From Solwaraspora sp. WMMD406 (GTDB lineage Bacteria > Actinomycetota > Actinomycetes > Mycobacteriales > Micromonosporaceae): a stretch of 64,000 nucleotides of DNA. The position numbers and the translations under genes are program-made. Location: the NCBI RefSeq assembly GCF_029626025.1, contig NZ_JARUBF010000001.1:434001-498000 (forward strand), read 5' to 3'. The first letter of the stretch is position 1, and each line of letters opens with the position of its first letter. The notes under the pieces were generated by a model. It saw nothing but the letters and a program-made list of their open reading frames with translations. It made no database searches and was not told the origin of the DNA. Positions 3,778-17,910 of the stretch are shown here, piece after piece.

Positions 3778-4683
3778 TCACACCGACCGGATGAGTTGGA
3801 TCTTGTCGCGGTAGTAATCTTCGGCGCTGGACATGATCGATTCGATCAGCCACACGTTGACACCGCCGGCCACGACCGCGCCGAGCACGGGAATCCAGCC
3901 GGCTCCCAGTTTGCCCGCGAACTTCGCGCCGAACTTGGCCCCGGCCTTGACCGCGCCCTTGCCGCCGAACTTACCCGCCACCAGCCATCCCGCGGAAGCA
4001 AGCATCACCTTGGGCAGCCCTTTGACGAAGCCTTTGCCGAATATCTTGGTGCCGGTCTTGACGCCCATCTTGGCGGAGATCTCCGCAGACACCTTGGCGA
4101 CCCCTGCCGGGGTCATCAGGAAACGTACCTGTTCGTCGCCGGTCCAGTAGGCGAGAATCATGCCGAAGTCGTCTCGCTCGACGATGTTCCCTTGTCCGGC
4201 TTCGCGACCCAGGATCGACCCGACACCGTACGCTGCCGTCCCCATGCGGTTGATGATGAACAGGGTGTCGGCGGTCAGGGTGGCGAGGTGCAACACCGGA
4301 ATGGCCGCTGCGACGGCACCGCTGCCACCCACCAGGGAGAGCTGAAGCCCTCTCCAGCCGGCCAGACTGTAGGATCTGCAATTCTGATAGATCTCCGCCG
4401 GATCTGCGGTCATGCCGTTTACGGCATCGACGAAGGCCTTACTGATACGCTCACTCATCGACATGGCTTCTCCTGTCGGTCGTACGGGCATGGGTGTCGC
4501 CGGGGTTCGACGGGTACGCTCGTACCGCTGCATGTGCCGGATCCGTCGGAGCCGCCGGACGAGATCGGCGTGCACCGCGCCGGGGTCGGCACCGCCGGAC
4601 ACCGCCTCGGTCACCGCGCCGCGAAGTTCCCGCACCAGCAGTCCCTTGATGTCGTCCGCTCGCTCGGAGCTGTCGCGCACCAC
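3778..4683 (-). CDS. EcsC-like protein with N-terminal cassette-specific module; likely dual start
   Basis: The 301-residue frame has two parts. Residues 10-51 (DDIKGLLVRELRGAVTEAVS, then GADPGAVHADLVRRLRRIRHM) match a free-standing protein at 18345-18611 over about 42 positions. Residues 74-301 resemble EcsC proteins: helical, hydrophobic segments near IPVLHLATLTADTLFIINRM, a Lys/Gly-rich stretch, and the ending WIPVLGAVVAGGVNVWLIES. EcsC-like proteins are membrane-associated with poorly defined roles. The GTG at 4683 follows the upstream gene's stop by one base. An internal ATG at 4464 (MSMSERISKAF) has a strong AGGAGA site, so a short 228-residue form without the module is likely also made. 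Last gene of the operon. Confidence 0.65.
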   Translation of the reverse strand: MVRDSSERADDIKGLLVRELRGAVTEAVSGGADPGAVHADLVRRLRRIRHMQRYERTRRTPATPMPVRPTGEAMSMSERISKAFVDAVNGMTADPAEIYQNCRSYSLAGWRGLQLSLVGGSGAVAAAIPVLHLATLTADTLFIINRMGTAAYGVGSILGREAGQGNIVERDDFGMILAYWTGDEQVRFLMTPAGVAKVSAEISAKMGVKTGTKIFGKGFVKGLPKVMLASAGWLVAGKFGGKGAVKAGAKFGAKFAGKLGAGWIPVLGAVVAGGVNVWLIESIMSSAEDYYRDKIQLIRSV

Positions 4684-4684
4684 G

Positions 4685-7600
4685 TCAACGACCCCGACAG
4701 GCGAGCGCGGCCCAGAACGACGGTCGCGTCAGGTCGATCGTCGCGACTGTGTGCAACTGGGCGGTGGTCACGAACTGTGGCAGGCTCCGATCGGGGTCGA
4801 GCATCCACCGGTGGACGGCGGCGACCGCCGCCGGTGGCGGCAGTCGGTGGTCGACCAGCATGAGGTGGGTCATGAACAACGCGAGTGCCGCGAACGGCGC
4901 GGGCACCGGCCACCGCCAGCCGATGACGCCGGCGAACCCGGCGTCGACGAAGACGTCGGCGTCGGCGTGAAATCCGTCCGGGCCGGGTTCGGCGAGCACG
5001 ACCAGGCCACCACCGACGGTCCGGGCCAGGCTGCGGATCGCCGTCGCGGTCAACACGTCGTCGTCGGCCAGCTGCAACTCCGTACGGCCGTCTCGACGCA
5101 GCCCGCACGCCAGATGCACCATCGACGCGCCGGGCATCCGAGCCAGTAGCTCACCGCGCGTACCGGCGGCGTCGGCCGGCTCCAGTGCCCGCCCGAGGCA
5201 GACCGAGTTCGGGTAGAAGAGCCGGCGAAGAGTCAGGACCTCGACCATGTCGGCGTCCCGGTCGCCTCGCGGGTTGACCACGAACAGCGGTGCGGCGTCC
5301 ACAGCAGAGGCGGGTCGCGCGGCCAGGGTGATCGCTTCGGCACCGGAGGACACATGGGAGACGACGACGCCCTGGGTCAGAAACTGGTTGTCGCCGGTCC
5401 GCACCGCCGGCAGCGCGATCCGCTCCAGGCCGCCGGTCGAGGCGAGCAACAGGCTGCCGGCCGTCCAGCGACCGACGATCGCCGGCCAGCCGGGGTCGTC
5501 GCTGGCCAGCGGATCGGTCACCGGTACGTTGGCCAGCACGTCGAGACGGTCGGTCGCGGGATCAACGCACAGCGCCGCCGCGTTACGCCCCGCGTCGTCG
5601 GTCGGGTGCAGGTAGAGCAGCGACGCGGCGCCGATCTCCCGGACAGCGGCGGCGGCCTCGGCCGGCGTCGGCACCGTCACCGGTCCGGTCACCTGGGGGG
5701 CGACTCCGACGGCGACCGAGACGACGTCGGCGGTGAGCGAGTCGACGTCGGCTCGGCCGGACATCGCGGCGGTGGCTTCGAGGGCGGCGAACGCCTCCGT
5801 AGCGTGTCCTTCGGCGAGCATCCAGCCGGCGTACCGGGCGGCGCGGCGGGGGTATCGGCCGGCTCCGCGCAGGGCGTGCCGGCCCGCGTCGCGGCACAGT
5901 TCGGAGTCCCCGGCGTCGCCCCGGCATCGGTAGGCCGCCGCGAGCCGCCACCAGGTGCGGGTCCGCAGGCCCTCGTCGGCAATGTCGTCGAGGGCCTGGT
6001 TGGCCGTGGTCAAAAGCCGGATGGCGGCGGTGACGTCACCGCCACCCGGATCGGGTGCCCGGATGGCAAGTTCGAGGCGGACGGCACCGATGATCGCCGC
6101 GATCCGCGTTGTCGGGCGGGCCGGGCTCGCGGTGATCGCGTCGACCGCCGTACGCAGCGTCGCCATGTCGTCGCGGACCACGGCTTCGAGTAACGCGGCG
6201 AGGCCGGCTGGTGCGGTGGCCGTCGCCAGCTCCGCGCGGACGGCGTCGGCGTCGCCTGCCCGTACGGCAACGGCGAGCCGGGCGTGTCCGACCGCTGTAG
6301 ACAGTTGTCGGTGCCAGGGGTGGTCGGTCGGCAGGGCGGCGACGGCCGCGGCGAACGGTTCCGGGTCGAGGGTCGTGCCGGTACGGATCGCGGTGACGGT
6401 ACGGCACAGTTCACCGATCGCGGTCACCGTCGCGGGTGGGTCGGGGATCCTGTCGGCGTACCGGCCGAGCGGGTCGGCGATCTCGGTTGTCGGACCGGAC
6501 AGCGGTCGCGCGTCGTCGGCCAGTCCGCCGAGCGCCGTCACGACGACAGCGGCGGCCGGGTGGGTCGCGGGGATCAGCGTGGCAGCGGCGCGGAGCTGTT
6601 TCGCGGCGGTGAGCCGGACTCCGCTGGCCGAGCTGTCGTCGTCGACACCGCTCCAGCCGTCGCGGTCACGGTCGCCCCAGCCGTCGCCGTCGCCGTCGCG
6701 TCGGTGACGCGCGCACAGCCCGACGGCGAAGAGCAGCCGATCCAGACCTGACTCGATCGGATCGTCCACCGCTGCCGCCACCGGATCGGCGAAAGTACCG
6801 TCGACCGTGCCGGCGGCCGCGCCGACGAACGTGTCCAGATCGCCGGGCGGTACCGCTTCGGGATCGACGTACAGCAGGTCGAGGGCCTGCTCCCAGACGG
6901 GCCGGGCGGCATCGTCGGTCAGCGCCGCCAGCCGGGCACGGACGACCTGCCGGGCCGTCGGATCGTCGGCCGTAACCGGGTCGTGGGCCGTACCCGGGTC
7001 GTGGGCCGTAACCGGATCGGTCGATGGTTGCCGGCGGGCTGGGACGGTCGGCGGTTGGCCCGCGTCGCCGTGGATCACGGTGACCGGATAGTCGATCGGG
7101 TCGACCGTGGTGCCGAGACTGAACGGCATCGCGACGGACGACACGAGGCCTGAGCCGGCCGCCATGCCGGGGAGTCCTGGTAGGCCGTCGCGTCGCAGGC
7201 GTTGCAGCTGCGCCATCGCATCCATGATCTTGCTGGTGTCGAACCGGGCGAGGTCCCCGGCCAGCAGAGGCTGAATCGATTCCGCGACGGTGAGCAACGC
7301 GCGTGCCGTCGCCGTGACGTCGGCGCTGATCGGGGGTCCGTCGACGACGGCACGAAAGCAACTGATCGCCTCGGCGGCACCGGTCTTCGCCGAATCGGGC
7401 AGGCCACCGAAGAAGCAGCCACGTACGGCGGTCGGGCTCATCGACTCGGTCGCGTAGGTCAGATGCAACTGGCCGAGCTGCAGCTGGAACACCATGGTGT
7501 GCGTCGGTGGGAGATCACCTGACGCGAGCGCCTCGCCGAGCATCGCCAGCGCGGTGTCCCGGTCCTCCGATCCGGTCCCGTGCAACGCGAACCGGTACGC

Positions 7601-7843
7601 CAGCAGGTTGCCGAGTTGACCGGCTGACTGTCCACGGGCCGGATCCGCGCCGCCAAGGAGACCGTACGCTTCGCGCCACGCTTCGATCGCGGCCGACAAG
7701 TCCGGGAGAGCAGCCGGCAGGCCTGGTCCGGTCCGCATGTACCTGTTGGCGTATTCCTGGCCGAGCCGGGTCAGCGTTGGTAACCGCGCCGGCCCGCGCA
7801 GTCCGGGGAGCTCGTCGCGCAGCCTGCTGATGGTCACGTCCAT
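4685..7843 (-). CDS. TPR/helical-repeat protein with degenerate CHAT-like C-terminal domain
   Basis: This 1052-residue protein begins RLGQEYANRYMRTGPGLPAA and is mostly helical repeat. A linker near residue 260 repeats TAHDP/TADDP units. From about residue 735 it looks like a CHAT (caspase-like) peptidase domain: MVHLACGLRRDGRTELQLAD, GGGLVVLAEPGPDG, then DAGFAGVIGWRWPVPAPFAA and a final helix VHRWMLDPDR. In active CHAT proteins the first motif usually reads HxAxHG and the second LSAC. Here the HG histidine is absent (HLACG, about residue 910) and the Cys position reads LAEPG (about 952). A scaffold or pseudoprotease role is inferred. It sits 22 nt after the TPR gene and 1 nt before the EcsC-like gene. 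Confidence 0.65.
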   Translation of the reverse strand: MDVTISRLRDELPGLRGPARLPTLTRLGQEYANRYMRTGPGLPAALPDLSAAIEAWREAYGLLGGADPARGQSAGQLGNLLAYRFALHGTGSEDRDTALAMLGEALASGDLPPTHTMVFQLQLGQLHLTYATESMSPTAVRGCFFGGLPDSAKTGAAEAISCFRAVVDGPPISADVTATARALLTVAESIQPLLAGDLARFDTSKIMDAMAQLQRLRRDGLPGLPGMAAGSGLVSSVAMPFSLGTTVDPIDYPVTVIHGDAGQPPTVPARRQPSTDPVTAHDPGTAHDPVTADDPTARQVVRARLAALTDDAARPVWEQALDLLYVDPEAVPPGDLDTFVGAAAGTVDGTFADPVAAAVDDPIESGLDRLLFAVGLCARHRRDGDGDGWGDRDRDGWSGVDDDSSASGVRLTAAKQLRAAATLIPATHPAAAVVVTALGGLADDARPLSGPTTEIADPLGRYADRIPDPPATVTAIGELCRTVTAIRTGTTLDPEPFAAAVAALPTDHPWHRQLSTAVGHARLAVAVRAGDADAVRAELATATAPAGLAALLEAVVRDDMATLRTAVDAITASPARPTTRIAAIIGAVRLELAIRAPDPGGGDVTAAIRLLTTANQALDDIADEGLRTRTWWRLAAAYRCRGDAGDSELCRDAGRHALRGAGRYPRRAARYAGWMLAEGHATEAFAALEATAAMSGRADVDSLTADVVSVAVGVAPQVTGPVTVPTPAEAAAAVREIGAASLLYLHPTDDAGRNAAALCVDPATDRLDVLANVPVTDPLASDDPGWPAIVGRWTAGSLLLASTGGLERIALPAVRTGDNQFLTQGVVVSHVSSGAEAITLAARPASAVDAAPLFVVNPRGDRDADMVEVLTLRRLFYPNSVCLGRALEPADAAGTRGELLARMPGASMVHLACGLRRDGRTELQLADDDVLTATAIRSLARTVGGGLVVLAEPGPDGFHADADVFVDAGFAGVIGWRWPVPAPFAALALFMTHLMLVDHRLPPPAAVAAVHRWMLDPDRSLPQFVTTAQLHTVATIDLTRPSFWAALACRGR

Positions 7844-7865
7844 GGCACTATCGCCTTTCGGTCGG

Positions 7866-9539
7866 TTACTGGCCCCAGTGGAGGAATCCGGCCCACGCCA
7901 CCACGTGAGCGGGATCGGAGTCCGCGAGCGTGCGGCGCAACGGCGCCGGCATGTGTCGGGGCGGCTCGCGGTCCGCGTCGAGCATCCACATTTGCGCCCG
8001 GCGCAACGCGTCCTGGATCTCGCCGAGGTCGGGCGGGTCGAGCAGGCCGGCGTCCTGCGACAACACCGTGAGGACGTCTTCGCGTACGTGTGCGGGCGGG
8101 CGTTCGGTCGCGCGCCAGCGTTCCGCCAGGTCCGCCCGTCCGGCGTCGACCAGACGCGTGTACGGATCCCGCAGCTCGGTCGCGGCGAACAGCATCAGCC
8201 CGCGTCCCGCGTCGATAGCGCGCAGGGCGTCCGCCAGGGCGTGGTCGACGAGACAGCGACGCGCTGTCGACATCGCTCTCGCCGCCGCGTCCCGGGCGAT
8301 GGCCCGCGCGGCCGACGGGTCCGGCTGCAGCATCACCTGCCAGACGTACCCGCGCAGCCCTTCGAGCGCGGCGAGCCGGGCCGGCAGGGCCTCACCCCGC
8401 CGACTGCGTAGATCAGCGAGCAGCCCGTTGACCAACGACCAGTCCGGGTGAGCTGGGGATCTGGCCAGCACCCGGGCCTGTTCCAAGATGGTGACGGACT
8501 CGTCGACGTCGCCGAGTGTGCCGCTGGCCTGCGCCCGATGGCTGAGGGCCATCGCGAGCGAGGCGAGGTGGAAGACGTGCTCCGGATGGTCCTTCGGGGT
8601 CAGGCTGACAGCCTCGCGCAGGTCACCGATCGCGGCGCCTATCCGCGCCGGATCCTGCTCCGCGCCGCCACGCAGCGCCAACCCGCCCTTGCCGACCAGC
8701 AGCAAGGCGCGATGTGCATCCGGAGCGTCGGGATGGTCGGCACGGTGCTGGATGCCCTTCATCCGCAGGTCATGCGCTGCCAGATCGGTATCCGGCACCC
8801 CTGTCTGGGCCTGGAACTCCGCCGTCATCGGCGCGATTTCGTGGAACGCACGACGCAGGAGGTTGTCCTCCGGCAGATCGCCAGACTTTGCTATGCAGTC
8901 GGCGAGCAGGGACAGGGCGGTTGCGGTGTCACCGGCCTGATGTGCCTCAAGCATGTTCAGGCATTCATGCAGGGAACGGTGCATCGAGACCATCTCGGGA
9001 TTGCCGGCGACCAATTGGCCGAGGTTGGCGATCGACTCGCGAAGCGCGCCCAGATCCTGAATCGTGCCGCTGGCTATCCTCACCATGGCTTGCGCGGACA
9101 CGGCCAGGGTCTGAACCTCCGGATCCTCAGAATGATCCGCGATCAGTTGGTCCAGTTCGACGGCTGCCGTACGCGGATCCAGCAGCTCGCGCTCGCTGAC
9201 CGCACACATCAACGCGAGGATCCGGGCCGCCGCCCGGGTACGCCGCCACTGTGGGCTGACGGAACGCCGCTCGTCAGCCAGTGTCACCAGCCGGTCCAGT
9301 GGCCTCAACCGGCTCAGAGATCGCAACCGGTTCATGCCGTTGGCATCACGGTCGCTCAGCACCAGCTGGATCAGCCGCTCCGCCAGCGCAGGTCGGGCCG
9401 GATGGCCGACCGGTAGAACCTCCAGACCCGACGTGGTGGTCTCGACAAAAGCCTGAAAGGCTCCATCATCGGAATCGTCAGGCCACGTGGCGCGGACGTC
9501 GCCGGATCCGACGATCTCGCTCGCGTCCGGGTGCCCCAT
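7866..9539 (-). CDS. TPR protein retaining only the last helix of a CHAT domain
   Basis: The 557-residue protein is an alpha-helical repeat array ending in ALRAIDAGRGLMLFAATELR and LLDPPDLGEIQDALR, the sequence that normally leads into a CHAT peptidase domain in actinobacterial TPR-CHAT proteins. Instead of about 250 residues of peptidase it passes at once to RAQMWMLDADREPP and ends VVAWAGFLHWGQ, which matches the far end of a CHAT domain. The neighbouring gene has the same final helix (VHRWMLDPDR). The catalytic core therefore appears cleanly deleted in frame at a DALR/ALRRAQ junction. It probably binds partners through its repeats. ATG at 9539, second gene of its transcription unit. Confidence 0.65.
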   Translation of the reverse strand: MGHPDASEIVGSGDVRATWPDDSDDGAFQAFVETTTSGLEVLPVGHPARPALAERLIQLVLSDRDANGMNRLRSLSRLRPLDRLVTLADERRSVSPQWRRTRAAARILALMCAVSERELLDPRTAAVELDQLIADHSEDPEVQTLAVSAQAMVRIASGTIQDLGALRESIANLGQLVAGNPEMVSMHRSLHECLNMLEAHQAGDTATALSLLADCIAKSGDLPEDNLLRRAFHEIAPMTAEFQAQTGVPDTDLAAHDLRMKGIQHRADHPDAPDAHRALLLVGKGGLALRGGAEQDPARIGAAIGDLREAVSLTPKDHPEHVFHLASLAMALSHRAQASGTLGDVDESVTILEQARVLARSPAHPDWSLVNGLLADLRSRRGEALPARLAALEGLRGYVWQVMLQPDPSAARAIARDAAARAMSTARRCLVDHALADALRAIDAGRGLMLFAATELRDPYTRLVDAGRADLAERWRATERPPAHVREDVLTVLSQDAGLLDPPDLGEIQDALRRAQMWMLDADREPPRHMPAPLRRTLADSDPAHVVAWAGFLHWGQ

Positions 9540-9593
9540 CTCGTCACGATCCCCTCAGGTGTGCGTCGCTCCTTTCTGACGGACGGTGGGTGG

Positions 9594-10613
9594 TCACCGA
9601 CGACGGTGCTCGTCGAGCCACGCGACGACCCTCGTGACGATCTGCTCCCGCCGCTGCGGGTCCTCGATCAGAGCCGCGACCAGCTCCGCCCCGGCCGGCT
9701 CCTCGCCCGGCAGCCGGTCCAGGCCGGCGACGGTAGGCAGCGTGCCGAACACGGTCGTCACCACCTCGGCGACCACGGCGCGGGGATCGTCGCCCCGGTC
9801 GACCCGCTGGGTGATGACATCGAGGGCCACCGCGGCCAGCTCCTGCAGCAGTGCGTCGTCCTGCTCGTACGGGGCGACGGGAGTGAACGGCTCCGGCTCG
9901 GCGTATCCACCATCGACGTCGCGGGAAGGGAACCAGACCGGGGCCTGTTTGCGCCCCATCGGCTGGTCCACGTACTTGTCGTACCAGGCGGGACGCTGCC
10001 GCATCGCGGTCAGCACCGTCTCGATCTCGGCGGCGACGACCGATTCGCCGACGGTGTGGTCACCGGTGACGACGGCGCGCTGCTCGGTCCACGCGCCCAG
10101 CGGCCACAGCACGCCGAGCGCGGTGTCGGTGCCCACCCACTCGAGGATCGCCTTGGCCAGGGCCACCAGCCAGACGTCCCCGTCGAGCGCGTCGACGAGC
10201 CAGGCCGCGACGCGGGGACGCTGCTGTGCGCCGCGCTGCCCACGACGACGCCGATGACCATCCACCGTGGCCTTGCCCACTCGTACGGTGAGCCAGCCCT
10301 CCAGGTTGTCGATCGGTGCGGTGGCGAAAGCGAAGAGGTAACGAACGGTCGATTCGACGTCGTCGTGATACCGGTCCACGCAGTCGGATGACAGCCGCCG
10401 CACGCCCGTCGCGCACTGATGGTGGCCGCGTTTGTGTTCGATCGGCCGGGTGACCCGGAGGAACACCAGCGGGCCGGCGATCTCCGTCGCTCCCGCCCAC
10501 AACAAACGCCGTTCGTCGTTCGACGCCTTGTGGAAGTAGCGCACCAACCCGCCTTCGGCCGCCAGCCGGCGTACCTGATCCGCTGCGCGGGACGGCTTCT
10601 CGTTATCGGCCAT
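9594..10613 (-). CDS. Unrecognised cassette protein, paralogue 1
   Basis: ATG at 10613 (MADNEKPSRAADQVRRLAAE) is chosen over a longer upstream frame because GGAGGAG lies just ahead of it. The 339-residue product shares an ordered set of blocks with the gene at 16882-17910: a GH..CAT segment, RL..DC.DR.H.DV, a NL.GW block, ATVDGHRRRRG, RPRV..WL, GD.WL..LA, then WVG and MGRKQAPV. The middle (NLEGWL followed by VDGHRRRRG) loosely recalls sigma-factor region 2, but I would not assign that function. No membrane segment or signal peptide is seen. It starts a transcription unit after a strong hairpin at 10845-10873 and leads into the two TPR genes. Confidence 0.6.
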   Translation of the reverse strand: MADNEKPSRAADQVRRLAAEGGLVRYFHKASNDERRLLWAGATEIAGPLVFLRVTRPIEHKRGHHQCATGVRRLSSDCVDRYHDDVESTVRYLFAFATAPIDNLEGWLTVRVGKATVDGHRRRRGQRGAQQRPRVAAWLVDALDGDVWLVALAKAILEWVGTDTALGVLWPLGAWTEQRAVVTGDHTVGESVVAAEIETVLTAMRQRPAWYDKYVDQPMGRKQAPVWFPSRDVDGGYAEPEPFTPVAPYEQDDALLQELAAVALDVITQRVDRGDDPRAVVAEVVTTVFGTLPTVAGLDRLPGEEPAGAELVAALIEDPQRREQIVTRVVAWLDEHRRR

Positions 10614-10844
10614 TGTGTGACTCCTCCGGGTCAACGCTGCTCGTCGACGCACCGGCCCGAGGGCACGCCGCGATCGCGCGGCAGTGCCACCGCGCCAATC
10701 GGGCGTTCATCGGGAGCTGATCAGGTGCGCTTGTCGAGGACTACGTCGATCGTCGATCGTGCCGGAAGGTGCCGCCAAGTGGCCGGGGAGAAGATACGGA
10801 GAACTACGTAAGCGCCCCCGGACGCCAGGTGGATACGTACGTGC

Positions 10845-10873
10845 GGGCCGGGTTCCGTGACGGAACCCGGCCC
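10845..10873 (-). terminator. Strong hairpin between the small caspase-side gene and paralogue 1
   Basis: A perfect 13-bp stem, GGGCCGGGTTCCG (10845-10857) and CGGAACCCGGCCC (10861-10873), closes a three-base loop 17 nt after the small gene's stop. There is no T-tract, as is common for actinobacterial hairpins. It would split the cassette into an upstream unit (17910 to 10891) and a downstream unit (10613 to 3778). Confidence 0.65.
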
Positions 10874-10890
10874 GTGTCCCACCTGGAGTG

Positions 10891-11115
10891 TCAGGACATC
10901 TCGCTGGGGCGCGGCCCCGGGTCGAAGTCGAGGACGACGGTGGAGGTGGCCGCTCCGTTGAGGAAGACGGTGACGCGGCGAGCGTCGGCGTCGTAGAGCT
11001 TCAGCTCCACCGACGTACGGTTGGCCATCGCCTCTCGGACCTGCCGGGCCACGTCCGGTGCCTCCGCGTCGGAGACGCTCCACGTCGCCTGCCCGATGGT
11101 GATCTTCTTGGTCAT
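10891..11115 (-). CDS. Small conserved-looking protein of the caspase cassette, unknown function
   Basis: This 74-residue protein begins MTKKITIGQATWSVSDAEAP and ends FDPGPRPSEMS. AAAGGGAG stands seven bases ahead of the ATG. The centre (SVELKLYDADARRVTVFLNG) predicts two beta strands after a helix (VARQVREAM), a compact alpha/beta fold. It follows the caspase gene by 72 nt and precedes the hairpin at 10845. I do not recognise the family. Its fixed place between the peptidase and the terminator suggests an accessory, adaptor or inhibitor role, which is inference only. Confidence 0.6.
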   Translation of the reverse strand: MTKKITIGQATWSVSDAEAPDVARQVREAMANRTSVELKLYDADARRVTVFLNGAATSTVVLDFDPGPRPSEMS

Positions 11116-11187
11116 GTCGAACTCCCTTTCACAGTTGTGCCCGCGAACGGGCGATTCCGATGGATGCCTCGACCGATCCGGTGACGC

Positions 11188-13725
11188 TCAGGCCACTTCG
11201 TCGATCGAGAACGTGAACGTGAAATCCTGCGGATGCCGCACGTGACGACCGATCCCGTACTGTTCCTGCGCCAACAGGGACGTGCGATATAGGCCGATGT
11301 TCGAACCCACGGCCTTGGTCAGGAGTTCGTAGGCCGTGTTCACCAGCACCGCGCCGGCGCCGACGGCCGCGACCGCGGCGGCGGCCTGTGGTGCGGCCAC
11401 CGCGAGACCGACCAGCTCGGCACCGGCGGCCTGCACCAGCGGACTGGTCAGCTTTTCCTGCAGCAGGTCGCCGAGCGCCAGACTGCCGGCGGTGTCGCGG
11501 GACACCCAGACCGCGATGTCGAGGTAGTCGACCGCCGGCCCGTGGTAGATCAGCACGTTGTCGAGCGGCAGCCGTTCACCGTCGGCTATCCGGCTGCACC
11601 GGATGGTTTCCGCGCGGTACGTCAGCTCCTGTCCGGTCCCGCCGGTGCCGCCGGTGCCGCCGGTGAGCACGACCGCGTCCACCCGGATGTCGGCGTTGCC
11701 GAACGCGCGGTTGCGATGCACGATCAACTCGTCGATCCGTACGGCGACCCTGGTCGGCGTGAGGCTCCGCGCGGACAGCAACCGGACCTGTTGGCCCGGC
11801 CGGTCGTCCACCCGGAACGTCGGTTCCTCGACGGTCGGTGGAACGGTCGGACTCACCATGAAGTCGATCGGCACCACGTCGAACCTGACGTCCGACACCG
11901 GCGCGGCACCGACCTCCCGGCTCGCCCCGGTGGCGATCTGCTGCAACAGCCGGCCCAGGTTCGACGTGTCGTCGAAGCGACGGGGCACGTCCCGGACGCC
12001 TTGTTGCCGCAGCACCCCGACGTCGACCGGTTTGTCGCTGATCAGCGCCAGGACGGTCTCCGGTCGCACCGCCGCAGGGACGATGCTCTCCGGCCAGGTC
12101 ACGTCGACACCGGTCAGCCGCTGCCGGTCGTGGTCCCAGCCGTAGGTGTACGACGCGCCGGGAAGGAGCCGGACGCCACCGTGGTCGGCCGCCGTCAGCA
12201 CGGTGACGCGCGACGAGATGCCGACGTCGATCAGCGAGACGTACGCCGTATGTTCGCCTTCGTTGCGCAGCCGAACGTAAATGCGTTCCCCTTCGTAGGC
12301 GAACAGCAGCTCACCGGCCCGGGAGAGCGGGTCCGGCTCACCGTCACGTACCCGCCCCCACTCGATCACCACGCCGTGGCGCAGCGGTCGGTCCGGGTCG
12401 CCCTGTAGTCGGCGCAACGCGGTCGCCTGGGCGATCCGCTGCAGGTTGTCGGTGATCGAGATGATCCCCAGCGGGGTCGCCGGATACGGTTCGTGCAGCG
12501 GCCCGTTCTCGTCCCGTACGACCAGTTTGTGGTCGGTGTCGACGACGACCTCGACGGCGGCCGTCACGTCCGTCGCGGGGTCCGCCGGACGCAGCAGCGT
12601 CCACAGCGACATGGCGTCGCGGAGCTTCGCCGCGACCGCGTCGTCCGCCGGCAGCCGGACCGGCAGCGCCGGTGCCGCCGCGTGGGTACGGTACGCGCGG
12701 GCATCGGCCGGCAGCGACCGGTCCGCCGCCAGGCGTAGCTGCGCGGACGCCATCGTCGGCAGCAACCGGTCGACGGTCGCGGTGCCGAGCGCCGGTCCGT
12801 CCTGCGGCCCGTCGGCGCTGTTCGGCATGATCGCGAATTTGTCACCGACTCCGACGCCGAGCAGTGGCGCGCCGAGCAGTTCGATGCGCTCCGGCCCGGT
12901 CGCCACGACCGACAGACTGTCCACCAGGTCCAGGTCGGTGGTTTCGAACGGCTGTCGGCTGGTCGGCCCCTGCACCTCCGGCCGCTGGGCGGGTTCGAAG
13001 TTCTGCACCTCGCCGCGCACCGTGGTGAGCAACGTCGACCAGTTGATCCGCAGCCCGACCGAGTCACGGATCGCGCGGGTCAGCGCGTCGGTAAACAGTC
13101 CCATCTGGACGCTTTCCCGGTTGGCGGTCTCGTAGGCGGATTCCCACGGCGCGCAGGCCACCACGCGGACCGCGTGCGGGTTGGCGATCAGCGGGCGCTG
13201 GTGTACCGGCAGTCCGTCGGCCGCCTGTCGGTCGATGTACCGGCGGACGGTGTCGTAGGTCGGACGCCAGCGTTCCGGCGCCGAGCGGATCAGGGCCCGG
13301 ACCCGTGCGTCTCGGCGGGACATGTGCGCGGCGTGGCAGCAGTCGTGAATCACCGTGACGTTGTGGGTGACGTCGGTCAGCCGCTTGAGCAGCAGGGACT
13401 GTTCGACGCCGGTGACGCCGCGGAAGTCGTCCTCGGTGGAGTCGTCGTAGTCGTCCGGCACGATGAACTGGAGTTCCGCTCCGTCCGGTGCCAGCAGTCG
13501 ACCGCCATGCCCGCTGAAGTAGACGACGACCGCGTCGTCGGGCCTGGCGTCCGTGATCAACTTTTCGTACGCGTCGAGGATCCGTTCCCGGGTGGCGTCC
13601 GGCGTGACCAGCCGGTCGATCAGGAATCCGCGCTGCGCCAGGGCCAGTCCCATAGCCGTGACGTCGTTGAGCACGCCGCTCAGGCCGTTGGTCTGGGCAC
13701 CGATCAGAAGAGCCTTTCGCGTCAT
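11188..13725 (-). CDS. Caspase-family (peptidase C14) protein with long C-terminal extension
   Basis: The 845-residue protein opens with a caspase fold: MTRKALLIGAQTNGLSGVLN, the catalytic His in VVVYFSGHGG (His73), and the catalytic Cys in VTVIHDCCHAAHM (Cys130, preceded by Asp128 as in the DxCH motif). Both catalytic residues are present, so it should be active. Residues about 280-760 are beta-rich, possibly sensing or effector-binding, with a GGTGGTGG linker. A hydrophobic stretch (LVGLAVAAPQAAAAVAAVGA) lies near residue 780. There is no signal peptide, so it is cytoplasmic or membrane-anchored near its C-terminus. In bacteria such peptidases are often activated by partners encoded nearby, here probably the ATPase and TPR proteins. 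Substrate unknown. Confidence 0.85.
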   Translation of the reverse strand: MTRKALLIGAQTNGLSGVLNDVTAMGLALAQRGFLIDRLVTPDATRERILDAYEKLITDARPDDAVVVYFSGHGGRLLAPDGAELQFIVPDDYDDSTEDDFRGVTGVEQSLLLKRLTDVTHNVTVIHDCCHAAHMSRRDARVRALIRSAPERWRPTYDTVRRYIDRQAADGLPVHQRPLIANPHAVRVVACAPWESAYETANRESVQMGLFTDALTRAIRDSVGLRINWSTLLTTVRGEVQNFEPAQRPEVQGPTSRQPFETTDLDLVDSLSVVATGPERIELLGAPLLGVGVGDKFAIMPNSADGPQDGPALGTATVDRLLPTMASAQLRLAADRSLPADARAYRTHAAAPALPVRLPADDAVAAKLRDAMSLWTLLRPADPATDVTAAVEVVVDTDHKLVVRDENGPLHEPYPATPLGIISITDNLQRIAQATALRRLQGDPDRPLRHGVVIEWGRVRDGEPDPLSRAGELLFAYEGERIYVRLRNEGEHTAYVSLIDVGISSRVTVLTAADHGGVRLLPGASYTYGWDHDRQRLTGVDVTWPESIVPAAVRPETVLALISDKPVDVGVLRQQGVRDVPRRFDDTSNLGRLLQQIATGASREVGAAPVSDVRFDVVPIDFMVSPTVPPTVEEPTFRVDDRPGQQVRLLSARSLTPTRVAVRIDELIVHRNRAFGNADIRVDAVVLTGGTGGTGGTGQELTYRAETIRCSRIADGERLPLDNVLIYHGPAVDYLDIAVWVSRDTAGSLALGDLLQEKLTSPLVQAAGAELVGLAVAAPQAAAAVAAVGAGAVLVNTAYELLTKAVGSNIGLYRTSLLAQEQYGIGRHVRHPQDFTFTFSIDEVA

Positions 13726-13827
13726 GCCCGTCTCTGACGGACGGCGCGGCGGCGGGCTCGGCAGAAGCCTGGAGGCGGCTCGGCCGAAACAGCGCGGGGC
13801 GGGCTCAGCCGACAGCGCGGGGCGGGC

Positions 13828-16800
13828 TCACGCGAAGAAGCCTTCCCGGTGGGCCAGGGCGACCGCCTCGACGGACGAATGGACGCGGAGTTTGCGGTAG
13901 ACGCTACTGAGCTGGGTCTGCACGGTCCGAATCGCCACGCTACGGACGGCGGCGATCTGGCCGGTGGCGTGCCCCTCGCACAGCAGGCGCAGGGTGTCGA
14001 ACTCGGCCTGGGTCAAGCCGTACGGATACCTGGCCGCCGGTCGATCGGCCAAGTCCAGGTCCAGGTCCAGTGTGCGCGCCAACCGCGCGACCTGGTCCCG
14101 CAGTGGCGTGGCGCCGAGTGACTTCGCCACCAGATACGCCTCCCGGACCCGCTGCCGGGCCGCGTCCCGATCACCGGCGACGTGCGCCGCGATGGCCTGC
14201 CGCCACCGGGCGTACGCCGTCGGATACGGCCGGTCCAGCTTCACCCAGCTCACGGCGACCTCGCCCCACCCGGCGGCACTGTCGTTGCCCCGGATCCGCC
14301 GCCGCTCCATCGCGCAGAGCCGGACGAGCTGTGTCGTCTCGGCGTTCGTTGCCGCCTGCCCTGACGCCTGCCCTGACGCCTGTCCTGACGCCTGTCCTGA
14401 CGCCTGTCCTGACGCCGACATCCGCTGCGCCTGTGCGGCTGACCGGGCCAGTCGGTCACCGAGGGCGATCGCGGCCGGCCGGCTCGACTCGACCGACGCC
14501 GCCTGATCGGCCGCGCACCGCATGCCCAGCACGCACAGGCGCAGCACCTCCAGACCGTTCTCGCTCTCCCGGACCGCGACCAGCCCTCGCTCGACCACCT
14601 CGGCCGCCCGGACGAGATCGCCCTGCCAGAGCGCCAACTCCGCCCGTACGGCGTGCAGTGGACCGAGGAAGCGGGGATCGTTGCCCTGCTCGACGCCGTC
14701 GATCGAGTTGAGCAGCTCCTTGGCCTGGGCGTACTCGCCCCGCGCCACCTTGATCTCGGCGAGGGTGAGCCGGGCGTACAGGCTCTCCCCGGGCGGCCGG
14801 TCCGACGACGCCTCCCGGACGATCTCCTCGGCCTCGTCCCACTCGCCCAACAGCACCAGCGCCGCGCTGGCGTTGACGGCCAGCAACCGACCCTGCCGGG
14901 TGTTCGCCAGGTGGAGGCTGCGCGCCTCGTCCAGCCCGGTCCGGTTCGCCTTCGCCGACTCCCTGGTCCGGCCGGCGTGCTCCAGGAACAGCCCGAGGTT
15001 GCCGTAGGCCCGCAGCAGGTCCTCGATGTGGTTGGCTGTCCGGGCGATCTCCAGCGCGCGGCGTAGCCGAACCTCGCCCTCGCCCTCGGCATCGCCCAGC
15101 ATGCCGAGCGCGAGCCCGGAGATGTTCAGCGCCCGGCCCTCCTCAGCCAGCGCGCCGGCCTCCCTCGCCATGGTCAGCGCCGCGTTGGCCTTGTCCCGGC
15201 CGTCGGCGTACCGGCCGTCCCGCAGGTCGGCCAGGGCGAGGCCAGCCTGTACGCGCGCCTTCACCGCCGACGCCAGCCTGGCGTCGAGCAGCTCCGCCGC
15301 CCGCTGGAACGCCGCCACCGAATCGGCCCGCCGCCCGACTTCCCACAGATAAGTGCCACGCCGTTCGTACAGCTCACCGAGCCGGCACGGGTTGGTACCG
15401 GCATCGACCTCCGCGATAGCCTGCCGGACGTGTTCCAGGGCTCGGTCGACTTTGCCGGTCCAGCGGGCGGCCTCGGCGGCCCGGAGCAGCACCTGGTCCC
15501 GGGACATGCCCGCCTGGTGCGATGGGTCCGCCACCCGCTGCCACAGCTGCAGCGCCCGAGTGAACTGGGCCTCCGCCGACGCGAACGCCAGGGTGCGGTA
15601 AGCGGCCTCGCCGGCTTGCACGGCGAAGGACAGCGCCTCCGGCCACATCCCCGCCTGATACCAGTGGCTGGCCTGTTCGGCCACGGCGGAACCGTCGGCG
15701 AGACCGAGCCCCGAACCCCCGGCGAGACCGAGCCCCGAATCTCCGGCGAGTGCCCGCGCCATGGCGATGTGCAGGTCGACCTGGGTGTCGCGGACCGTCC
15801 CCCGATACACCACCTCGCGCAGCAACGCGTGGCGGAACCGGTACGCGTCCTTGTCCTGGCCGGTGACCAGCATCTGCCGGTCGAAGCACTCCTGCAGCGC
15901 GTCCCGCAGGACCTCACCAGGCAGGTCACTGACCGTACGCAACAGTCGCCGACTCATCGCCCGGCCGGCGACCGCCGCCACCCGCAGTACCCACAGCGCG
16001 TCCTTGCCCAGGCCGCTCAACCGAGCCAGGACCACGGACCGGATGTCGTCCGGCAGCCGGACGTCTTCCGGATTGTCCAGGACACCGGCCGCCATCAGCT
16101 GTTCGGCGTAGAACGGAATCCCGTCGGACCACTCCAGACACCGCTCGATCAGCTCCGGATCGACGGTCTCGCTGGCGGCGGAGTTGACGAAGCGCCGCAG
16201 CTCGTCGAGGGTGAAGGCGGGCAGTTCGAGACGTTCGGTCCGGCGCAGGAACGTCGGGCTCGCCAACAGTTGCCACAGCGGGTCCTCCCGGATCAGCCCG
16301 CCGGAGCGGAAGCTGCCCACCAGCAACAGCCGCCGGCCCTCGGCCCGGGTCTGGCCCAGGTGCCGGACCAGGTCGAGCGTGGACGGATCGGCCCAGTGCA
16401 GGTCCTCCAGGATCAGCACCACGGGCGCGTCGTCGCCGATCCGGTCGAGCATCCGGCGGACGGCGAGGAAGACCTGCTGTGGCGAGCCCATCGAGTCCGC
16501 GCCCAGATCGAAGAACTCGGTCAGCCGCTCGTAGGCGGCCCCGCCGAGCTTGACCGCGCGGGCCCTGCCGTACTCACGCCCGAACGAGTCCAGCACCTCG
16601 AGCAGCGGCCCGTACGGCATGGGGTCGCCGAAGTACTCCTCGCCTGCCCCGGACAACACGTGCGCGCCATCGGCCCGCGCCGACGCGGCGAACGTGCTCA
16701 GCAGCCGACTCTTGCCGATGCCGGCGTCACCGCCGATCAGCACGGTCCGCGCCTGACCCTGTCGGGCGTCGGTCAGGCGCCACGCCAGCAGCGCCATCTG

Positions 16801-16839
16801 TTCCGTACGGCCGACGAACTCCGCCTCTGCGGGCACCAC
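13828..16839 (-). CDS. LuxR-family regulator of the large ATP-binding (LAL/MalT-like) type
   Basis: The 1003-residue protein has an N-terminal AAA ATPase with Walker A TVLIGGDAGIGKSRLL (about residues 33-48) and a Walker B-like VVLILEDLHWADPSTLDLV. A long helical-repeat region follows, then a LuxR helix-turn-helix at the end (LTQAEFDTLRLLCEGHATGQ, AIRTVQTQLSSVYRKL). A repeated ASGQ linker corresponds to a 12-bp DNA repeat. LAL proteins are ATP-driven, ligand-triggered activators. Placed directly upstream of the caspase gene in the same direction, it probably senses a trigger and activates the cassette. GTG at 16839 is the start used; an ATG at 16844 is out of frame. Confidence 0.85.
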   Translation of the reverse strand: MVPAEAEFVGRTEQMALLAWRLTDARQGQARTVLIGGDAGIGKSRLLSTFAASARADGAHVLSGAGEEYFGDPMPYGPLLEVLDSFGREYGRARAVKLGGAAYERLTEFFDLGADSMGSPQQVFLAVRRMLDRIGDDAPVVLILEDLHWADPSTLDLVRHLGQTRAEGRRLLLVGSFRSGGLIREDPLWQLLASPTFLRRTERLELPAFTLDELRRFVNSAASETVDPELIERCLEWSDGIPFYAEQLMAAGVLDNPEDVRLPDDIRSVVLARLSGLGKDALWVLRVAAVAGRAMSRRLLRTVSDLPGEVLRDALQECFDRQMLVTGQDKDAYRFRHALLREVVYRGTVRDTQVDLHIAMARALAGDSGLGLAGGSGLGLADGSAVAEQASHWYQAGMWPEALSFAVQAGEAAYRTLAFASAEAQFTRALQLWQRVADPSHQAGMSRDQVLLRAAEAARWTGKVDRALEHVRQAIAEVDAGTNPCRLGELYERRGTYLWEVGRRADSVAAFQRAAELLDARLASAVKARVQAGLALADLRDGRYADGRDKANAALTMAREAGALAEEGRALNISGLALGMLGDAEGEGEVRLRRALEIARTANHIEDLLRAYGNLGLFLEHAGRTRESAKANRTGLDEARSLHLANTRQGRLLAVNASAALVLLGEWDEAEEIVREASSDRPPGESLYARLTLAEIKVARGEYAQAKELLNSIDGVEQGNDPRFLGPLHAVRAELALWQGDLVRAAEVVERGLVAVRESENGLEVLRLCVLGMRCAADQAASVESSRPAAIALGDRLARSAAQAQRMSASGQASGQASGQASGQASGQAATNAETTQLVRLCAMERRRIRGNDSAAGWGEVAVSWVKLDRPYPTAYARWRQAIAAHVAGDRDAARQRVREAYLVAKSLGATPLRDQVARLARTLDLDLDLADRPAARYPYGLTQAEFDTLRLLCEGHATGQIAAVRSVAIRTVQTQLSSVYRKLRVHSSVEAVALAHREGFFA
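14354..14413. repeat. Five tandem 12-bp repeats inside the LAL gene
   Basis: The unit GCCTGYCCTGAC is repeated five times without interruption. On the coding strand it gives the repeated tetrapeptide (S/A)GQA. The length stays in frame, so copy number could vary without breaking the gene. It lies in a linker between helical repeats. Confidence 0.85.
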
Positions 16840-16881
16840 ACCATCACCTCATCACCTACCGTGGCGGAAAGTCCAGTTTGA

Positions 16882-17910
16882 TCATGCAGCCGATGTGCCA
16901 CTGTGGATGCTGACGATGTCGAGCACCGCCGCGACGAGTCGATCCAACTCGGTGGCGTCGCGCAGCATCCGGTCGAGGCGGTCGCCGTACCCCCGGTCGC
17001 CCGTCTCGTACGAACCCGGCGCGACCGCGTCGTCGGTGCCGAACACCACGCCCAGCACGTCGGCGACGACCTGTCGGGCCGGTTCCCCCCGGGCCAACCT
17101 GGCGGTGATGAGCGCGACCGCGTCATGAGCCAACGCGGTCAGGACGCGATCCTGCTCGTGCTCGATGGACACGTCGGTCGGGGCTGGTGGACGACCGCCG
17201 TCGCGGTCGTCGAGCCGTGGCACCGCGACCACCGGCGCCTGCTTGCGGCCGAGTGGAACTTCCACGTACCGCTCGTACCACTGTGGCCGGTGACTCATCG
17301 CGTCGAGTACGACCCGGATGTCGGCGCGCACCTGCGCCTCTCCGTAGGTCGACCAGTCTCCGTGGCGCTCCCAACGCCGCGCCACCCAGGCCTGGGTCGG
17401 CCACAGGTCGTAGCCCGCGCTGCTGGGCACCCCGACCCAGATCAGGATCTGCGTGGCCAGATCGATCAACCAGGGGTCGCCACCCAGTTGCTTCGACAGC
17501 CAGCCCGGCACCCGGGGACGCTGCAGCGCGCCGATGGCGCCTCGCCGCCGGCGGTGCCCGTCGACGGTGGCCGGGACGAGACGGCTGGCGATCCATCCAT
17601 CAAGGTTCTCGATCCGCGACACGGCCCGGCGGACGACGTCGTCCACCACGGCGTCGACGTCGTTGTGGAACCGGTCGAGGCAGTCGGCGGCCAGGCGACT
17701 GATCGACGTCGCACAGGTGAGATGGCCCCGGCGCATTTCGATCTTGCGGGTCAACCCTCGATACACCACGGGCCAGACGATCGAATACGTCGCGCCGGTC
17801 AGCCGTACGCGATATGCCCCGGAGGCTGTGGCGATCGTGGCCGACAGCAATCCCCGGCGTGCCAGGTCACGGACCTCGTCGACACCATCGGTCTGGGACG
17901 ATCCGAGCAC
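16882..17910 (-). CDS. Unrecognised cassette protein, paralogue 2
   Basis: The 342-residue product starts with GTG at 17910, preceded by AGGAGGG. It shares its whole architecture with the 9594-10613 gene: RRGHLTCATSISRLAADCLD, then DRFHNDVDAVVDDVVRRAVS, IENLDGWIASRL, ATVDGHRRRRGAIGALQRPR, WLSKQLGGDPWLIDLATQIL, VEVPLGRKQAPVV, and a helical C-terminus. Invariant GH, CAT, DC-DR-H-DV, GW and VDGHRRRRG residues suggest a folded core under selection. It stands immediately upstream of the LAL regulator, 42 nt apart, and is the first gene on the minus-strand side. Function unknown. Duplication at both ends of the peptidase-regulator block suggests one copy may pair with each transcription unit. Confidence 0.6.
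   Translation of the reverse strand: MLGSSQTDGVDEVRDLARRGLLSATIATASGAYRVRLTGATYSIVWPVVYRGLTRKIEMRRGHLTCATSISRLAADCLDRFHNDVDAVVDDVVRRAVSRIENLDGWIASRLVPATVDGHRRRRGAIGALQRPRVPGWLSKQLGGDPWLIDLATQILIWVGVPSSAGYDLWPTQAWVARRWERHGDWSTYGEAQVRADIRVVLDAMSHRPQWYERYVEVPLGRKQAPVVAVPRLDDRDGGRPPAPTDVSIEHEQDRVLTALAHDAVALITARLARGEPARQVVADVLGVVFGTDDAVAPGSYETGDRGYGDRLDRMLRDATELDRLVAAVLDIVSIHSGTSAA

Follow-up and report, generated by a model that had tools for sequence, protein, structure and literature searches.

The TPR-CHAT protein of the type III-E Craspase, Csx29, consists of a TPR region and a separase-like CHAT domain; the catalytic dyad of type III-E TPR-CHAT is formed by H585 and C627, and mutation of the Cys abolishes activity (PMC9729208). 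The substrate of Csx29 is Csx30, a protein that inhibits a sigma factor (PMC10028731). In the TPR-CHAT protein of Desulfonema magnum (DmTPR-CHAT) the N-terminal domain inhibits Cas7-11, and deleting the C-terminal domain (CTD) does not alter this (PMC9935389). Caspases are found in other described systems: EACC1 is a membrane component that is paired with a caspase (Kaur et al. 2020, PMC7159879).

Within the window, by which we mean the whole stretch of 64,000 nucleotides that was analysed, one operon holds a gene (gene A) whose intact orthologues have the same architecture as Csx29. The actinobacterial TPR-CHAT (PF12770) orthologues from Micromonospora tulbaghiae, Asanoa siamensis, Paractinoplanes deccanensis and Actinoplanes siamensis resemble gene A in their TPR region, pre-CHAT helix, terminal helix and WAGFxHWG tail and, where this could be checked, in their operon context; unlike gene A, they possess the CHAT core with its dyad. 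Among TPR-CHAT proteins these intact relatives are nothing unusual. Their sequence similarity to Csx29-type PDB entries such as 7x8a is low (E about 0.003), and gene A differs from the type III-E Craspase by having no protease domain. No convincing Cas match was obtained for the operon genes (3778-17910) in Pfam, NCBIfam or PADLOC, and no Cas7-11 gene was identified among them. The cleavage of a regulator by a CHAT protease, as in Csx29, may have a counterpart in this operon.

In PDB the intact family is matched best by 8rot, a CHAT domain-containing protein (E 2.3e-11) that we take to be a SAVED-CHAT protease of a CHAT-caspase cascade. As presumably in that cascade, the operon brings a CHAT protease together with a caspase; unlike the 8rot system, it shows no SAVED domain or CRISPR gene among its proteins. 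The likeness to the EACC1/CATRA caspase conflict systems (PMC7159879) consists of the occurrence in multicellular actinobacteria and of a weak match of the caspase, gene D, to the caspase_w_EACC1 model (40 bits, with a cut-off of 140). No EACC1 partner was found among the genes scanned, and the operon does not appear to be an EACC1-caspase system.

Composition of the operon and the CHAT domain of gene B

All operon genes described here lie on the minus strand. Their order, G-E-D-C-A-B, is kept in several loci of the family, and other relatives have a partial operon in which A and B are nevertheless adjacent. Gene E (13828-16839) encodes an AAA_16 ATPase-TPR-LuxR (GerE) regulator belonging to the same conserved operon, and gene D (11188-13725) a caspase (Peptidase_C14) in whose sequence the motifs SGHGG and DCCHAA are present. 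Gene C (9594-10652; 352 aa), a conserved protein of unknown family, and its paralogue gene G (16882-17910; 342 aa) are about 41-45% identical, flank the LuxR-caspase pair and have the motif WL...ATVDGHRRRRG in common. Neither has a credible match in Pfam, NCBIfam, PADLOC or PDB, and the idea, formed by eye, that they could be ECF-sigma-like was dropped because neither Pfam nor PDB supports it. Gene F (3778-4683; 301 aa) shows a weak EcsC similarity, and is 84% identical over the aligned part to the protein of the same-genus locus. The C-terminal third of gene E carries a run of SGQA repeats that is missing from the copy in the same-genus genome G006, and an ORF past the downstream end of the operon (2069-2743) looks, by eye, like part of an IS5-type transposase.

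The TPR protein encoded by gene B (4685-7843) contains a CHAT domain (4691-5464) that is full-length by Pfam (residues 794-1051, E 1.3e-12). The first-pass annotation had described this neighbour as having a full domain, which is correct as to its length and misses that both the catalytic His and Cys are absent. When the CHAT regions of A and B proteins are aligned, the His and Cys (in the HG and AC blocks) are present in all 22 of the examined gene A homologues that adjoin a gene B, and also in a distant paralogue in the window's own genome; all 23 gene B proteins (L014, L015, L016, L046-L063 and L065, plus that of the window) are without His and without Cys. Gene B is therefore, by its sequence, a conserved pseudo-CHAT, and the one CHAT of the operon that had a catalytic dyad is that lost from gene A, as described below. 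As far as the alignments tell, the operon is left without an active CHAT protease, and only caspase D still has its dyad. Further CHAT proteins are encoded elsewhere in the genome, with nine Pfam matches in all, gene B among them, so the cell still has CHAT domains.

In the loci compared outside the window, the dead gene B always adjoins a TPR-CHAT gene that bears the dyad, as a conserved pair of active and pseudo-protease. No description of such a pairing was found in the literature searched, and it might conceivably be new.

The missing CHAT core of gene A

Gene A (7866-9539, minus strand) is an ORF of 557 codons without internal stop or frameshift; orthologue alignment shows that its product, a TPR protein, is the CHAT-deleted derivative of a TPR-CHAT protease. 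Its parts are a retained TPR-like helical stretch that includes the N-terminus (residues 1-508; 8014-9539), recognized from the predicted structure and orthologue identity, a junction (7998-8013), and an orphan CHAT tail (residues 515-557; 7869-7997) that comprises, by alignment, the last CHAT helix and the terminal segment. Both the pre-CHAT sequence LLDPPDLGEIQDALRR and the terminal segment AQMWMLDADRE...WAGFLHWGQ are found in the ORF, and a Pfam scan gives no CHAT (PF12770) domain. In the AlphaFold model, this TPR-like body is all-helical, mostly with pLDDT 70-95 between residues 21 and 490 and with local dips, as would be expected if the TPR part can still fold after the shortening; the end of the protein (residues ~497-557) is of low confidence, with pLDDT of about 33-56 in the orphan tail, as former CHAT segments left without a domain to pack against would be. 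An AlphaFold model of the intact orthologue (14 sequences) has low confidence in its CHAT part, too low for structural conclusions.

The N-terminal helical segment of gene A (residues ~14-88; 9276-9500) resembles distant homologues, such as those of G279 and G041, and is missing in the sister gene of G006 and in other close orthologues, a patchy presence that points to repeated loss or to regain by recombination.

The same-genus orthologue in G006 is a protein of 863 aa with an intact Pfam CHAT at residues 551-862 (E 1.2e-47). Gene A is 65% identical to it from window residue 90 to ~510; then 360 G006 residues (1,080 bp, in frame) have no counterpart, and identity rises to 88% over the final 48 residues after the gap. 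Eight close orthologues, aligned to gene A, all show a single clean gap between DALRR and AQMWML, so that the removed piece is the whole CHAT C-terminal domain minus its last ~43-48 residues; the terminal helix and the WAGFxHWG tail are kept. According to the alignment, the catalytic His and Cys both lie within the deleted stretch, and gene A has no dyad. In the phylogeny gene A is the sister of the G006 orthologue (support 100/100), with which it shares the gene order C-A-B. By descent, gene A thus belongs to the gene A group of TPR-CHAT orthologues, and its ancestor was probably an active cysteine protease, to judge from the dyad of the intact forms; as it stands, its sequence makes it a deletion derivative that is not itself a CHAT protease.

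At the junction, one copy of GGACGCGTTGCGCCGG, which codes for DALRR, is left. In G088 and G236 the upstream and downstream DALRR copies are exact direct repeats, with runs of 16 and 17 bp, a length not attained by control pairs taken in frame from these genes; in G006 the upstream copy agrees with the downstream one in 11 of 15 positions. Because of the exact repeats in these two relatives, deletion between short direct repeats is well supported as the simplest route, with recombination as its probable step. In bacteria, RecA-independent deletion of this kind is an established process (PMC5426353). Most of what the first-pass annotation had read from the window is borne out by these comparisons, namely the ORF with its pre-CHAT sequence and terminal helix, the one clean gap expected against full homologues, and an excision at ALRR repeats, the join lying within DALRR; its precise deletion of ~250 residues is indeed clean and in frame, and amounts to 360 residues when measured against G006.

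The distribution of the deletion was followed by protein searches of 355 genomes of the family (Micromonosporaceae by the named matches), 95 of which gave matches, and of a further 395 genomes of the class. A distance of 909-1,227 bp separates the upstream and tail blocks in 34 of the 34 homologous loci of the family in which a listed upstream match could be paired with a listed tail match, so that relative to these other relatives (~0.9-1.2 kb between blocks) the missing piece is somewhat smaller than relative to G006. Among the matches listed, no contiguous case occurs in the class sample of 395 genomes, and no second gap-free gene A in the ~750 genomes of both samples together; the window, representing the one genome of its species compared, is the sole gap-free case. 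The genome contig search with an alignment as query returned 15 named loci, and that with the window protein alone no relative.

Selection on the remainder and readings of the shortened gene

Pairwise dN/dS values relative to G006 are 0.40 for gene A, 0.39 for gene B and 0.28 for the caspase. In Tajima relative-rate tests of gene A with seven outgroups (chi2 0.06-3.4, the largest being 3.37), the window shows no significant excess, and at sites that are unanimously conserved elsewhere it departs 16 times and G006 14 times; a gene A decaying as a pseudogene finds no support in the relative-rate tests. The 44-codon tail has six amino-acid differences between the window and G006, four of them assigned to the window branch, where by a rough estimate ~27 changes are expected if the tail had been neutral since the split. 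Either the deletion is recent, leaving the tail unconstrained for at most roughly the final third of the branch, or the tail is still constrained. Both a recent loss and a continued use of, and selection on, the shortened protein are compatible with this lack of decay.

With a probability that we put at about 75%, the best overall explanation is a repeat-mediated in-frame deletion of the core that has produced a recent protease-null allele of gene A. A single deletion, probably by recombination between two DALRR-coding repeats (~16 bp), removed ~1.08 kb in frame and thereby the entire caspase-like domain with both of its catalytic residues, His and Cys. The product is a TPR-like helical protein with an orphan tail of 43 residues; it may bind its usual partners yet cannot cut, so that the CHAT-dependent step of the pathway would be off; the in-frame join would let translation continue towards gene B, 22 bp downstream. 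We lean, with some reserve, to a recent loss that brought no new function.

The first-pass annotation had gone further, in that the deletion should have turned a protease into a scaffold, a step left unsupported because retained parts without excess decay fit a recent loss equally well. Such a working scaffold or dominant-negative regulator, whose TPR part would hold the pathway non-cutting via gene B, the caspase or a sensor, is conceivable given the published DmTPR-CHAT, which without its CTD still inhibits Cas7-11 through its N-terminal domain (PMC9935389) and so keeps a non-catalytic binding role; the intact reading frame, the undecayed TPR part and tail, and the catalytically dead CHAT partner already present (gene B) in the operon of all relatives examined also speak for it. 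We nevertheless consider it doubtful, because a recent deletion would give the identical picture, the orphan tail is predicted at low confidence, and the same form occurs in no other species among the matches listed, hence without sign of a stable design; the orthologues, which might have shared the deletion and its boundaries, have their CHAT intact. Its more elaborate form, a protease-free regulatory complex in which CHAT-less A and pseudo-CHAT B make up a non-cutting scaffold that gates the caspase, seems improbable.

That the deletion is seen in a single genome among the matches listed could also point to an assembly or sequencing artefact, by collapse between the two short repeats; a repeat of ~16 bp is much too short to mislead the usual assembly, and the genome was assembled in 3 contigs, which makes this explanation very improbable. 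As for a TPR family that naturally ends in this tail and never had a CHAT core, no homologue without CHAT ancestry was found to end in the same way: a core of 0.9-1.2 kb precedes the tail in all measured homologues that share it, the sister G006 included, and the likelihood of such a family is practically negligible.

Meaning for the TPR-CHAT family

Gene A is a natural CTD deletion; the equivalent cut, made in the laboratory in a TPR-CHAT only distantly related, uncoupled binding from cutting. In the best-conserved loci of the family, a caspase and a LuxR-type regulator accompany an active TPR-CHAT and its catalytically dead neighbour, and the sequences suggest that A and B form a pair of active protease and pseudo-protease.
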